Source: Leptolyngbya sp. DLM2.Bin15 (GTDB taxonomy: Bacteria > Cyanobacteriota > Cyanobacteriia > RECH01). From it: DNA of 40,424 nucleotides. The stretch is taken from assembly GCA_007694125.1 (NCBI GenBank), contig RECH01000230.1, positions 1-40,424 on the forward strand. Reading direction: 5' to 3'. Below, piece by piece: positions 21,942-33,632 of the stretch. How positions within the stretch are numbered: the first letter of the stretch is position 1; the number at the start of each line of letters is the position of its first letter. The notes beneath the pieces were generated by a model. It had not been told where the DNA came from, ran no database searches, and saw only the letters and a program-made list of their open reading frames with translations. Made by a program: the position numbers and the translations under genes.

Positions 21942-22086
21942 GCTGCGCCGTAGATCCATGGGGTCAACCCTGTTGAACCTATGATGGGCAAGATGGTTGA
22001 GCACTACCACTGTTATTAGCAATGTCAGTCATTCTTGATACAAAATTTGATACTCTAGTTCAAATATAGATTTGGGGGCGACTCGC

Positions 22087-23250
22087 GTGACTATACAACT
22101 TGGTAGAGGCAAAACTGCTAGACGGGCCTATGGTATTGATGAAATTGCCCTCGTGCCAGGGACAAGAACTCTGGATCCGTCCCTAGCGGATACAAGCTGG
22201 AGCATGGGCGGCATTGAGCGTGAGATTCCCATCATTGCCAGTGCTATGGACGGCGTGATTGATGTGGGCATGGCGGTCAAGCTCTCTCAGTTGGGAGCCA
22301 TGGGTGTGCTTAACCTAGAAGGCATCCAAACTCGCTACGACGATCCTAACCCCATCCTCGATCGCATCACCTCGGTGGGCAAGGATGAGTTTGTACCCCT
22401 CATGCAAGAACTCTATGCTGAACCCGTCAAGCCAGAGCTGATCAAACGGCGCATTCAGGAAATCAAGTCCCAGGGAGGGATTGCTGCGGTTAGTATTACC
22501 CCAGTCGGTGCCACTCGCTTTGGGGCGGCTATTGCCGAAGCTGGTGCAGATATTGTGTTTGTTCAAGCGACCGTGGTGTCTACGGCTCACCTATCGCCTG
22601 AAGCCGTAACGCCTTTGGATTTAGCTGACTTCTGCCGCGAGATGCCGATGCCTGTGGTGTTGGGCAACTGTGTCACCTATGATGTGACGCTCAACCTGAT
22701 GAAGGCGGGTGCTGCTGGTGTGTTAGTGGGCATTGGCCCTGGCGCTGCCTGCACGTCTCGCGGTGTTTTGGGTGTGGGGGTTCCTCAAGCAACGGCTGTG
22801 GCCGACTGCGCCGCCGCTCGGGATGATTATTTCCAAGAAACAGGGCGCTATGTGCCGGTGATTGCGGATGGTGGTCTGGTGACTGGCGGCGATATCTGCA
22901 AGTGTATTGCCTGCGGTGCCGATGCCGTGATGATTGGCTCTCCCTTTGCTCGGGCCCAGGAAGCACCGGGCCGAGGTTTTCACTGGGGGATGGCCACCCC
23001 TAGCCCCGTTCTACCGCGTGGTACCCGCATTCGTGTGGGCACGACGGGCACGCTAGAACAAATTCTGCGGGGCCCAGCTCAGCTCGATGATGGTACCCAC
23101 AACTTCCTAGGGGCGTTGCAAACCAGCATGGGCACCCTCGGCGCGAAGGACATTCGTGAGATGCAGCAGGTGGAAGTGATCGTGGCACCCTCGCTGCTCA
23201 CGGAAGGTAAGGTCTATCAAAAGGCACAGCAGCTAGGCATGGGTAAGTAA
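22087..23250 (+). CDS. guaB3: GuaB3-type IMP dehydrogenase-related protein (probable GMP reductase)
   Basis: The protein is 387 residues from GTG 22087, chosen because GGGGG lies 8 bases upstream and [25 protein letters not shown] is the family N-terminus. It is a TIM barrel with the catalytic-Cys loop [39 protein letters not shown] and MIGSPFARA. The CBS (Bateman) module of true IMP dehydrogenase is absent. GuaB3 proteins of actinobacteria and cyanobacteria were long annotated as IMP dehydrogenases. A cyanobacterial member has been reported to act as a GMP reductase in guanine-nucleotide recycling. A strong hairpin follows the gene. Confidence 0.88.
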
Positions 23251-23262
23251 TGTGCAACTCTG

Positions 23263-23299
23263 GAGGATACCTGAGTCCAGGCTAGACTTAGGTATCCTC
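23263..23299 (+). terminator. Terminator-like hairpin after guaB3
   Basis: GAGGATACCT pairs with AGGTATCCTC, then GAGTC with GACTT (one G-U), giving a 15-bp stem with a 7-nt loop. It lies 12 bp past the guaB3 stop. The downstream sequence TAGGAGG lacks a T-run. Confidence 0.5.
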
Positions 23300-23317
23300 T
23301 AGGAGGAAAGATATGAA

Positions 23318-23363
23318 GCGATCGCCCTGTTCTACTGAGCCTAGAGTGGTAGAAGGCGATCGC
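23318..23363. promoter_or_regulatory. HIP1-armed hairpin in front of the Rad50-like gene
   Basis: GCGATCGCC then TTCTAC on the left pairs with GTAGAAGGCGATCGC on the right, with a 3-nt bulge. The stem is about 15 bp and uses two HIP1 sites as its outer arms. It ends about 48 bp before the ATPase start. Confidence 0.4.
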
Positions 23364-23410: not shown

Positions 23411-26155
23411 ATGCAGATTCTCTCAGTTACTCTGACGAATTTCAAAACTCACCAGGATCGCCACTTTGTATTCCAGCCAGGGGTAAATACTATCTGTGGG
23501 GAAAATGGAGCGGGCAAAACTAGCATCGTGGAAGCGATCGCTTGGGTACTCTTCAATTACCGTGGATCCTATAAGAATGAAGACTTAATTCGCAACGGTC
23601 AAAGCAGCACCCAGGTGGCGGTGGAGTTTGTGTCTAGCCACGATGAGCGCACCTATCAAGTTCAGCGCTGTACCACCAAGGGCTATCGCCTCTACGATCC
23701 ACAGCTTGACCAAGTTCTCAACTATCGCCACATTGAAGACGAAGTCACCCCTTGGCTACGGCAGCAGTTGGGCATTGCTCCTGGCATTGATCTCGGCCAG
23801 CTTTTTGCCAATACCATCGGTGTTCCCCAAGGTACCGTCACGTCTGACTTTTTGCAGCCGCCCACCCAGCGTAAGCAGATTTTTGACGCCATCTTGAAAG
23901 TTGAAGAATTTCGCTTGGTCTACAAGGAAACGGGGGCATTAGAGAAGTATGCCAAGGCTGAACTGGATCAAGTGAAGCAGGCGATCGCTCAATACAACGA
24001 AAGTCTAGAACCTTTACCGGAACTGCAATCCCGGCAAGCAGCACTGGTGGAAGCGATCGCTCAGGATGAGACTCACCTGGCAGCCCTGGAGCAAGAGCTG
24101 GCCCAGCTTGAAGAACGCCAAGCGGCGATCAGCCAGCGTCAGCAGCAGTTGCAAACCCTCACCGCTGAGAAACAAGCGATCGCTGCCCAGGTGGAGGCCA
24201 AGCAAAGCGCCCTGAAGATTCTAGACCAAGCGCTGCAGGCGGCCCGGCAGGCGGCCAACTTCTGCGCAGAAAATCGGGAGAGCTACGACCTCGTCCTGCA
24301 GGCGGAGCAGATGCTGGCCGATCTAGAGCAGCAGCGTAAGCAACGCCACCAACTGCAAACCCAGCGGCAAGACCTACAGCGACAGCTCACCCTAGGGCAA
24401 AACCAGCTCACCCGCTATGCCCTGCAGCTTGAGCAGGTTGAAAAGGCCGAACAAGACTGCGATCGCCTGCAGCCGTTGCTCGAAACCCAGGGACAGCTAG
24501 AGGAACAGCAGCGTCAGATCGATCAACAGATTCAGGCCCTCAGTGCCCAAACCGTTGAGTTTCAAAGTCTAGAACAGCATTTAAACCGTCTGCGAGGCCA
24601 GTGGAAGCAGGTATCCCAGGAGATCGATCGCATCCAGCCCTTTGAAGAGGCGATCGCCGCGATCCCCGAGCTAGAGCGCCAGCGCGATCGCCTCCAGCAA
24701 CAGTTGAGCCGGGTGGAAGCCGCCAAACAGTTTGAAGCCGAGCTGCGGCACCTGGTCACCCATACCCAAGCCCAACGGCAGCCCCATCTTGATCGCATTC
24801 AGGCAGGAATTGCCCTATTGCGCCAGCTTCCGCCCAGTGACACCCTGCAAGCGGCGATCGCTAGCATCGAAGCCGATAGGGACTTGACCACCGATCTGAT
24901 CACCGCTCTGCAAGGCATCCTCTCGGAACTAGGGGAGCAGGTGTCGGCGATCGCCCTGGGGCAGCAGTTGACCCAGGTCACCCAAACCTTGGATCAGGCC
25001 TATCGTCAGCGGGCTGAGGTGGCCACCTTGGAGGAAAAGCGGCATCGCTTGGTGGATTTGAAAACCGAGGGTGAACAAACGCGATCGCACCTAGAGCAGT
25101 TAACTCAACAGCTCGCCCAGCTCACGCCGTTGCAGACGGAGCGATCGCACCTGGCCCAGCAGCTTGCTGCCCTAGACAATCCCCGTGCCCGCCACCAGGT
25201 GCTGACTCAGGAGCTGCAGCGTCGGCCGGCCCTGCTTCAGGATCAACAGACTGCCCAAGATCAATTAGCTAAGGTAGACGATGCGATCGCTGCCTTAGAT
25301 CTACAACTGGTGCCCTTTGCCCAGCTCGATAGGGATCTTGAACGCCAGCAGCAGCAGCGCCAGCAGCACCAGACCGGGTATTTAGCCTATCTACGCTACC
25401 GCAACGATGCGGATCAGGTGCCCAAACGTCAGGCTGATCTAGATCAAGCGATCGCCGATCTCCAGCAGAGTCAAGATGCGGCCCAAGCGATCGAGGAGCA
25501 GTATCAAATCCTCATGCAGGACTATGATGCCGAGGCTGCCGAGGGGATTCGCAGCCGCTATGAGGCCACCCGTCGTCAGGTCGATCGCCTGTCGGGAAGT
25601 TTGCCCCAGCAACGTCAGCGCCAGGCGGAATTGGCTGAGCAGATCCACATCCTGATGGAGTTGGCCCATAAGCGCGATCAGGCTGAGGTTGATCTCAAGA
25701 CCAAGGAACGGATCAAGCGCCTGATTAGTTTTGCCCGCAAAGTTTACAAAGAGGCTGGGCCGCGGATCACGGAGCGCTATGTGCAAACGGTTTCCCAAGA
25801 AGCCGATCGCCTGTTTCGGGAACTGCTGAATCGCCCTAATGTGGCCCTGGAATGGACGCGAGACTATGACATTGTGGTGCAGGAAGGGCCCCACAACCGA
25901 CGATTTATGAACCTCTCTGGCGGTGAGCAAATGTGTGCAGCCTTGGCCGTGCGCCTAGCCCTGCTGCGAGTGTTTGCGGAAATTGACGTGGCTTTCTTTG
26001 ATGAACCCACCACCAATATGGATCGCCCCCGCCGTCGCCATCTGGCGGAAGCGATCGCCAATCTCAAATCGTTCCAACAACTGTTTGTGATCAGCCACGA
26101 TGACACCTTCGAGCAGGTCACCGAAAATGTCATCTTTGTCGAACGCCTTGCCTAG
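23411..26155 (+). CDS. Rad50/SbcC-like SMC-type ATPase lacking a CxxC zinc hook
   Basis: The protein has 914 residues. Walker A is GENGAGKTS at 30-38. The ABC signature LSGGEQMCAALAVRLALL is near 835, and Walker B DVAFFDEPTTNMD near 859-871, followed by the H-loop VISHDD. Two long Gln/Leu-rich coiled coils (about 175-445 and 525-770) flank a non-coiled segment at roughly 447-520 (RIQAGIALLRQLPPSDTLQAAIA). Rad50/SbcC normally have a CPxC zinc hook there; no CxxC occurs anywhere in this protein. It should be a DNA-end or repair ATPase. The partner gene starting at once downstream encodes a PD-(D/E)XK nuclease, not an SbcD/Mre11 phosphoesterase. Confidence 0.88.
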   Translation: MQILSVTLTNFKTHQDRHFVFQPGVNTICGENGAGKTSIVEAIAWVLFNYRGSYKNEDLIRNGQSSTQVAVEFVSSHDERTYQVQRCTTKGYRLYDPQLDQVLNYRHIEDEVTPWLRQQLGIAPGIDLGQLFANTIGVPQGTVTSDFLQPPTQRKQIFDAILKVEEFRLVYKETGALEKYAKAELDQVKQAIAQYNESLEPLPELQSRQAALVEAIAQDETHLAALEQELAQLEERQAAISQRQQQLQTLTAEKQAIAAQVEAKQSALKILDQALQAARQAANFCAENRESYDLVLQAEQMLADLEQQRKQRHQLQTQRQDLQRQLTLGQNQLTRYALQLEQVEKAEQDCDRLQPLLETQGQLEEQQRQIDQQIQALSAQTVEFQSLEQHLNRLRGQWKQVSQEIDRIQPFEEAIAAIPELERQRDRLQQQLSRVEAAKQFEAELRHLVTHTQAQRQPHLDRIQAGIALLRQLPPSDTLQAAIASIEADRDLTTDLITALQGILSELGEQVSAIALGQQLTQVTQTLDQAYRQRAEVATLEEKRHRLVDLKTEGEQTRSHLEQLTQQLAQLTPLQTERSHLAQQLAALDNPRARHQVLTQELQRRPALLQDQQTAQDQLAKVDDAIAALDLQLVPFAQLDRDLERQQQQRQQHQTGYLAYLRYRNDADQVPKRQADLDQAIADLQQSQDAAQAIEEQYQILMQDYDAEAAEGIRSRYEATRRQVDRLSGSLPQQRQRQAELAEQIHILMELAHKRDQAEVDLKTKERIKRLISFARKVYKEAGPRITERYVQTVSQEADRLFRELLNRPNVALEWTRDYDIVVQEGPHNRRFMNLSGGEQMCAALAVRLALLRVFAEIDVAFFDEPTTNMDRPRRRHLAEAIANLKSFQQLFVISHDDTFEQVTENVIFVERLA

Positions 26156-26188
26156 GTGCCGTCCCTGTCCCGTTATCCAACCAACTCC

Positions 26189-26968
26189 ATGCCGCTCCAG
26201 CTTTCCCAAAGTGCGCTGACTGTCCTCAGTCTCTGCCAACGAAAATTTCAGCATGTTTATTGGGATCAGCTCAGTGGCCTGATGCCCACGGAACAGCGAT
26301 CGCACCTAGAGTGGGGTAGCCGCTTCCACCACCTGATGCAGCAACGGGATCTAGGGCTACCGCTCCATGCCAACTCGGCCGATGATGTTTCCTTCTACCG
26401 CTGCATGGAGGCCTTGGTGCAAACCGTTCCCCAGATTTTTGACCCCAGCGCTTGGCGCGATCGCCTCAGTGAACATCGGCGCAGCCTGCGTCTAGGCGAT
26501 GCTGTCTTCACCGTCGTGTATGACCTGCTGCTGCTGGGTGATGACCAAGCCCAGATTATTGACTGGAAAACCTACCCTCGTCCTCAACAGTCTCACTGGC
26601 TCTCCCAGCATTGGCAAACCCGCCTCTATCCCTTCGTCCTGGCTGAAACCAGTGACTACAGTCCCGACCACATCAGCATGACCTACTGGTTTGTACAGCC
26701 CTATTTGACGGAACCGATCCCCCAATCCATCACCTTTCCCTACAGCACAGCCCAACACCAGCAAACGCGCCAACGCTTGACCACCCTGGTGGAACACCTG
26801 ATGGCTAGTCTCGCTGCCTACCAAGATGGACAACCCCTGCCCCAGCTACCTGAGGGATCGGCCGCCTGCGAAGACTGCGCCTTTGCCCTCCGCTGCCAGC
26901 GCGGTGCCTACGCTATTGCAACGCCGGCACTGCCTACGCTGACTGATATTGCCGAAGTGGTTCTTTGA
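26189..26968 (+). CDS. PD-(D/E)XK nuclease, RecB/Cas4-like, with putative Fe-S cysteines
   Basis: The protein is 259 residues from ATG 26189; the ORF-track start at 26156 follows the ATPase stop without a gap and is an alternative. The motifs are in order. LSLCQRKFQHVYW holds the first Cys. HLEWGSRFHHLMQQ is the motif I His region. VVYDLLLL supplies the acidic residue, IIDWKTY the DxK, and QTRLYPFVLAE the QxxxY motif IV. At the C-terminus, CEDCAFALRC supplies three more cysteines. One N-terminal and three C-terminal Cys is the 4Fe-4S pattern of Cas4/AddB-type nucleases. It is directly coupled to the Rad50-like ATPase, so the two probably form a DNA-processing complex. Confidence 0.82.
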   Translation: MPLQLSQSALTVLSLCQRKFQHVYWDQLSGLMPTEQRSHLEWGSRFHHLMQQRDLGLPLHANSADDVSFYRCMEALVQTVPQIFDPSAWRDRLSEHRRSLRLGDAVFTVVYDLLLLGDDQAQIIDWKTYPRPQQSHWLSQHWQTRLYPFVLAETSDYSPDHISMTYWFVQPYLTEPIPQSITFPYSTAQHQQTRQRLTTLVEHLMASLAAYQDGQPLPQLPEGSAACEDCAFALRCQRGAYAIATPALPTLTDIAEVVL

Positions 26969-33550: not shown

Positions 33551-33632
33551 TGCGGATGAAAGGACTTGAACCTTCACTTCTTGCGAAACTAGAACCTAAA
33601 TCTAGCGCGTCTACCAATTCCGCCACATCCGC
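33551..33632 (-). tRNA. tRNA-Leu (anticodon UAG)
   Basis: The minus strand reads GCGGATG as the 5' acceptor arm and CATCCGC at the 3' end, with discriminator A and no encoded CCA. The anticodon stem is CTAGA/TCTAG and the loop TTTAGGT gives anticodon UAG. A long variable arm (TTTCGCAAGAAG region) precedes the T arm GAAGGTTCAAGTCCTTTC. The 82-nt length and class II variable arm fit tRNA-Leu. Confidence 0.93.

Follow-up and report, generated by a model that had tools for sequence, protein, structure and literature searches.

We analysed a 40,424-nucleotide stretch of DNA from the cyanobacterium Leptolyngbya sp. DLM2.Bin15 (contig RECH01000230.1; hereafter the window, meaning this whole stretch), and focused on a gene for a Rad50-type ATPase and on the nuclease gene that follows it. 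A reading made from the DNA letters alone (the sequence-only reading) had proposed that the two proteins act together, with the nuclease in place of Mre11/SbcD. The main features of the locus are given below, with the conservation of the ATPase head motifs taken from a 49-sequence alignment.

23411 to 26155, forward strand: gene for a hookless Rad50-type ATPase of 914 amino acids (SMC_N, 80.6 bits; AAA_23, 38.1 bits).
23498 to 23524, forward strand: Walker A motif GENGAGKTS, residues 30-38, near-invariant.
24662 to 25021, forward strand: apex module at the zinc-hook position, residues 418-537, three helices predicted by AlphaFold2.
24701 to 24733, forward strand: apex patch 1, QLSRVEAAKQF, residues 431-441, a conservation peak in mid coiled coil with R434 and F441 invariant.
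24917 to 24940, forward strand: apex patch 2, ILSELGEQ, residues 503-510, with the L504, D/E506, L507 and Q510 columns near-invariant.
25913 to 25930, forward strand: ABC signature LSGGEQ, residues 835-840, near-invariant.
25991 to 26023, forward strand: Walker B and D-loop AFFDEPTTNMD, residues 861-871, invariant.
26156 to 26968, forward strand: gene for a PD-(D/E)XK nuclease of 270 amino acids with four conserved cysteines (PF12705, 87.7 bits).

The bipartite ABC ATPase head of the window protein is complete, with Walker A, signature and Walker B motifs, and in the AlphaFold2 model its two halves are joined by long coiled-coil arms that run antiparallel. The NCBIfam model of archaeal Rad50 (PRK03918) scored 219 bits on this protein, versus 77 bits for the SbcC model (TIGR00618). 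Its nearest solved structures were archaeal Rad50, and it lay far from SbcC in a tree of the head. An SbcC identity was rejected on these scores and this tree position. We searched 386 genomes of the phylum for the ATPase and for the candidate partners described below, and found full-length relatives of the ATPase in 23 of them (at least 168 bits inside this set, 78 bits for the next best). The window's genome also encodes a canonical SbcC (1038 amino acids, with a CPLC hook), whose scores are the reverse of those of the window ATPase (373 bits for the SbcC model, 149 bits for archaeal Rad50), and, elsewhere, a canonical SbcD (237 bits). SbcD was above its family cut-off in 16 of the 23 ATPase genomes. 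Bacterial SbcCD likewise combines a Rad50/Mre11-type ATPase with a phosphoesterase, but SbcC and SbcD are separate from the window ATPase and coexist with it.

To our knowledge, the zinc hook is regarded as a near-universal signature of Rad50 that is essential for its function. The window ATPase has five cysteines (residues 29, 87, 285, 350 and 842) and no CxxC, and it gave no match to the Pfam zinc-hook model even at a threshold of E ≤ 1. A CxxC was likewise missing from each of 96 relatives in the same class, which indicates that its absence is more than chance, and in 71 of these proteins the apex segment was wholly free of cysteine. Because no CxxC lies at the apex, we refer to the protein as a hookless variant and not as a canonical Rad50; the loss of the hook is genuine and clade-wide in this class. 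The sequence-only reading was correct in describing a full-length SMC-type ATPase without CxxC, the SMC/Rad50 motifs being complete. It also described a non-coiled segment where the hook belongs. A distinct segment does occupy that position, but it is not simply non-coiled, since long helices were predicted there at residues 418-470, 477-508 and 513-537 of the full-length model. When residues 385-570 were modelled alone, the predicted local distance difference test score (pLDDT) was 90.7. Conservation was low in the arms, rose sharply at residues 421-441 and rose again near 503-510 (ILxDLxEQ). These two patches of conservation point to a specific contact, and we infer that hookless Rad50 may dimerise through this apex. 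A search of the PDB with the apex fold returned generic coiled coils only, none of them below E 0.001.

The true correlate of the ATPase is a second Mre11, here called Mre11-2. In the window's genome it is a protein of 418 amino acids on another contig (C280), distinct from SbcD; it scored 99 bits against the Pyrococcus Mre11 model and 43 bits against SbcD, and its best solved match was Mre11 of Pyrococcus furiosus. All five phosphoesterase motifs were kept in 24 of 24 Mre11-2 sequences. Mre11-2 was found in exactly the same 23 genomes as the ATPase (at least 274 bits inside the set, 46 bits for the next best), so that neither protein was found alone in any genome searched; the sole match outside the set, in G032, was weak and unrelated-looking (45.6 bits). 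The mre11-2 and rad50 genes adjoin in six genomes (G013, G021, G041, G053, G177 and G332). In G177 and G332, which are 3.0-Mb genomes of one family, the ATPase gene lies directly after mre11. Mre11 is therefore kept, not replaced, in the hookless lineage.

This distribution bears directly on the proposal that the ATPase and the adjoining nuclease form a dedicated complex with the nuclease in Mre11's place. The two genes lie in tandem on the same strand, 0 to 33 nucleotides apart in the window's genome, and are probably co-transcribed, and 17 of the 23 ATPase genomes carry a clear nuclease copy somewhere. However, the perfect match in distribution belongs to Mre11-2. The nuclease was detected in 134 genomes, and most of its clear copies (106 of 123) were in genomes without the ATPase, contrary to the conserved co-occurrence that the sequence-only reading had expected; six ATPase genomes gave a weak nuclease match only. 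Among about 100 loci of ATPase relatives (80 from named genomes), the nuclease stood beside the ATPase in the window's own genome only. Downstream DNA was short at some of these loci, and at least 1.5 kb long at most. At one other locus (L017) a nuclease copy lies about 3 kb upstream of the ATPase, on the opposite strand. The sequence-only reading had further looked to an absence of sbcD in the same genomes, where we found both sbcD and sbcC in the window's genome. It had named two observations as speaking against its pairing, and both were made, since sbcD is present in the same genome and homologous ATPases do not stand beside the nuclease. The adjacency is coincidental and peculiar to one genome, and we regard a complex of the two proteins as very unlikely.

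The nuclease itself is well conserved. Its catalytic residues H58, D123, D136, K138, Q154 and Y158 were invariant in 31 of 31 sequences, as were Cys27, Cys238, Cys241 and Cys247. The iron-sulphur-type cysteine pattern reported from the sequence alone is thus real, but its spacing is CxxCx5C and not CxxCx6C. The nuclease was also said to follow the ATPase without a gap. The open reading frames (23411-26155 and 26156-26968) do follow each other directly, but the absence of a gap depends on a GTG start at 26156. Because relatives of the nuclease begin near residue 12, the ATG at 26189, which leaves 33 nucleotides after the ATPase gene, is the likelier start. The protein shares the PDDEXK_1 fold and the four-cysteine pattern with iron-sulphur nucleases of the AddB, Cas4 and RecB kind, but the Cas4 model gave 11.2 bits on it against a cut-off of 65, and its gene, single-copy and common in cyanobacteria, occurs independently of the ATPase. 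It is probably a neighbour and not part of the complex.

Two further proteins accompany the ATPase and Mre11-2. In G177 and G332 the genes form an operon, mre11-rad50-nurA-X-herA, in which NurA matched PF09376 at 191.5 bits and HerA matched DUF87 at 188 bits and the NCBIfam HerA model at 209 bits. Of the 386 genomes, 21 encode NurA-2 and 22 encode HerA-2, and every one of these belongs to the 23-genome ATPase set (best scores outside it, 61 and 102 bits, respectively). A second, unlinked NurA is present in most cyanobacteria, and most of those that lack the set have no NurA other than one of a different type. The best scores of Rad50, Mre11-2 and HerA-2 were all against archaeal relatives. The nurA-X-herA genes stand together in G021, and X-herA in G053; basal genomes show partial clustering. 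The window's genome carries all five genes on different contigs (NurA-2 on C172, HerA-2 on C109, X on C272 and Mre11-2 on C280), and its gene X product is 64% identical to that of G177. Gene X encodes about 200 amino acids (197 in the operon), and in three lineages its position is between nurA and herA (L123:4933-5526, reverse strand; L282:1501-2106, forward strand). It had no Pfam match and no match among PDB sequences. By eye, gene X looked likely to encode a HAS-barrel protein like the N-terminus of HerA, and this candidate was rejected when profile comparison gave a probability of 0.2%. The Rad50 proteins of G177 and G332 (L123 and L124), which are also hookless, are about 1,200 amino acids long, with arms some 280 residues longer than those of other members of the class.

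Fisher tests of co-distribution with the ATPase gave p values of 1.6e-37 for Mre11-2, 5.9e-35 for HerA-2, 1.1e-32 for NurA-2 and 2.4e-5 for the nuclease. The set was present in 13 families of the sample, and no listed family seemed mixed. We propose that the ATPase is, very probably, the Rad50 of a second, archaeal-type Mre11-Rad50 complex that has a NurA nuclease and a HerA translocase of its own and is present alongside an ordinary SbcCD. Several observations weigh against this proposal. The Fisher p values ignore shared ancestry and treat related genomes as if they were independent; a rough tree of 33 genomes, built from markers, needed about seven changes of the trait, of which only three were forced by well-supported branches. 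The NCBIfam Rad50 scores lie under their curated cut-offs (PRK03918, 219 bits against 700). The draft genome G013 lacks NurA-2 and HerA-2, and the draft G041 lacks NurA-2. Lastly, the genes are dispersed in the window's genome and also in complete crown genomes; in G011, for example, they are far apart on one chromosome, where rad50 lies at 2.92 Mb, mre11 at 0.75 Mb, nurA at 2.25 Mb and herA at 0.22 Mb. The link between the genes therefore rests on their distribution and on the operons of other lineages, and the operons are evidence independent of the distribution statistics.

Dispersal in crown genomes would also suit a hookless ATPase that acts without Mre11, as a tether or loader resembling SMC or RecN, with the co-distribution reflecting inheritance of an old gene set; other SMC-like ATPases are known to work without a nuclease partner. 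This is very unlikely, given that every catalytic motif is retained in Mre11-2, that mre11 and rad50 adjoin in six genomes and are linked in phages, and that no genome has only one of the two proteins. A role in genome defence had been suggested from the sequence alone, and the PADLOC model of LmuB, the SMC component of the Lamassu system, did match the ATPase (E 9e-39). However, this match reflects general SMC features, and the roughly 100 loci contained no LmuA-type, LmuC-type or other conserved defence neighbours. No neighbour gene of any kind was generally conserved around the ATPase at these loci. Moreover, whole families have kept the ATPase, and the four genes of its partner set are those of end resection in archaea. 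We consider that the ATPase has almost no chance of being a component of such a defence system, and the broader suggestion of a defence role is unsupported. The other part of that suggestion, a complex that processes DNA ends, is likely, with Mre11-2, NurA-2 and HerA-2 as the partners.

We infer that Rad50, Mre11-2, NurA-2 and HerA-2 assemble physically and are active, and propose a mechanism on the basis of the known functions of the archaeal proteins (PMC9960219; PMC8708640). Two hookless Rad50 and two Mre11-2 subunits would form an ATP-driven clamp that recognises DNA ends and nicks or trims them. A HerA hexamer and NurA would then resect the 5' strand, leaving a 3' tail for RecA. The Rad50 arms would be joined, if at all, by the metal-free helical apex in place of a zinc hook. 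Such an apex is plausible because a yeast Rad50 in which the MukB hinge replaces the hook is functional (PMC6969161).

The closest known system is the archaeal HerA-NurA-Mre11-Rad50 set, which forms an operon in thermophilic archaea (PMC9960219, citing Constantinesco 2004; review, PMC8708640). The same four proteins occur here, with the same kind of clustering in G177 and G332. In contrast to the archaeal set, the cyanobacterial one is bacterial and mostly dispersed, has the additional gene X between nurA and herA, and in the window's class has a Rad50 without a zinc hook. The system is, as judged from its sequences, a hookless variant of the archaeal end-resection machinery in bacteria. Deinococcus radiodurans also combines a NurA nuclease with a HerA translocase, but PMC9960219 treats NurA-HerA alone, whereas the cyanobacterial pair tracks a dedicated Mre11-Rad50. 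The MukB hinge chimera likewise indicates that a metal-free dimerisation module can substitute for the zinc hook (PMC6969161), but it was engineered in yeast, whereas the window's class is a natural lineage with a different apex throughout. HerA and NurA homologues have been noted in Cyanobacteria (PMC8708640), and PMC4477158 just lists a 'bipolar DNA helicase'. In our literature search we found no paper describing this set as such in cyanobacteria, although an earlier mention is possible.

On this reading, some cyanobacteria would carry two complete Mre11-Rad50 systems, one of bacterial and one of archaeal type. A large natural hookless clade that keeps Mre11, HerA and NurA offers a direct way to ask what the hook is for. 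Gene X adds an uncharacterised fifth gene, which accompanies nurA and herA in three lineages. The result also has a use in annotation, where it corrects a tempting but wrong pairing drawn from adjacency in one genome.

Relatives outside the window's class bear on how the hook was lost. In basal members of the phylum (L125, L126, L127 and L128), rad50 lies beside mre11, and at the apex of Rad50 the cysteines are spaced C-x6-C (CPILxxGC or a similar sequence) and not CxxC, which is possibly an atypical metal hook. Two phage contigs (L283:2728-6448 and L284:2208-6430) carry a gene for an Mre11 that is close to this subfamily, followed by one for a short Rad50 (about 810 amino acids) with a CPTC hook; mre11 is directly upstream of rad50 in L283, and one gene lies between them in L284. 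In the head tree, a well-supported branch (100/99) split hook-bearing from hookless proteins, which fits a single loss of the hook. Rooting this tree with SbcC was rejected because the separating branch is saturated, and the root is therefore unreliable. On balance we lean slightly towards a wider reading, in which an archaeal-type HerA-NurA-Mre11-Rad50 resection machine is present across a whole bacterial lineage, its Rad50 either uses a metal-free helical apex to dimerise or functions without one, and this natural replacement of the hook evolved a single time, from a form with cysteines, in the ancestor of the window's class.

Around the ATPase gene itself, two hairpins separate it from guaB3, which lies upstream at 22072-23250 (TIGR01304, 554 bits). 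The second is at 23318-23363, and the first is as follows.

23260 to 23302, forward strand: terminator-like hairpin between guaB3 and the ATPase gene (21-nucleotide inverted repeat, 86% complementary, 1-nucleotide loop).

At L019, L024, L026 and about 20 similar loci, a caspase-like protein of about 940 amino acids with a P-loop NTPase domain (NACHT-like) is encoded directly upstream of the ATPase; this arrangement is lineage-specific and confined to one subgroup. The sole Rfam match in the window was one tRNA gene (33551-33632, reverse strand). The HIP1 sequence GCGATCGC, which is abundant in many cyanobacteria, occurred 118 times in the window (positions 1-40424) against 0.9 expected, and many of these copies lie inside the ATPase gene.

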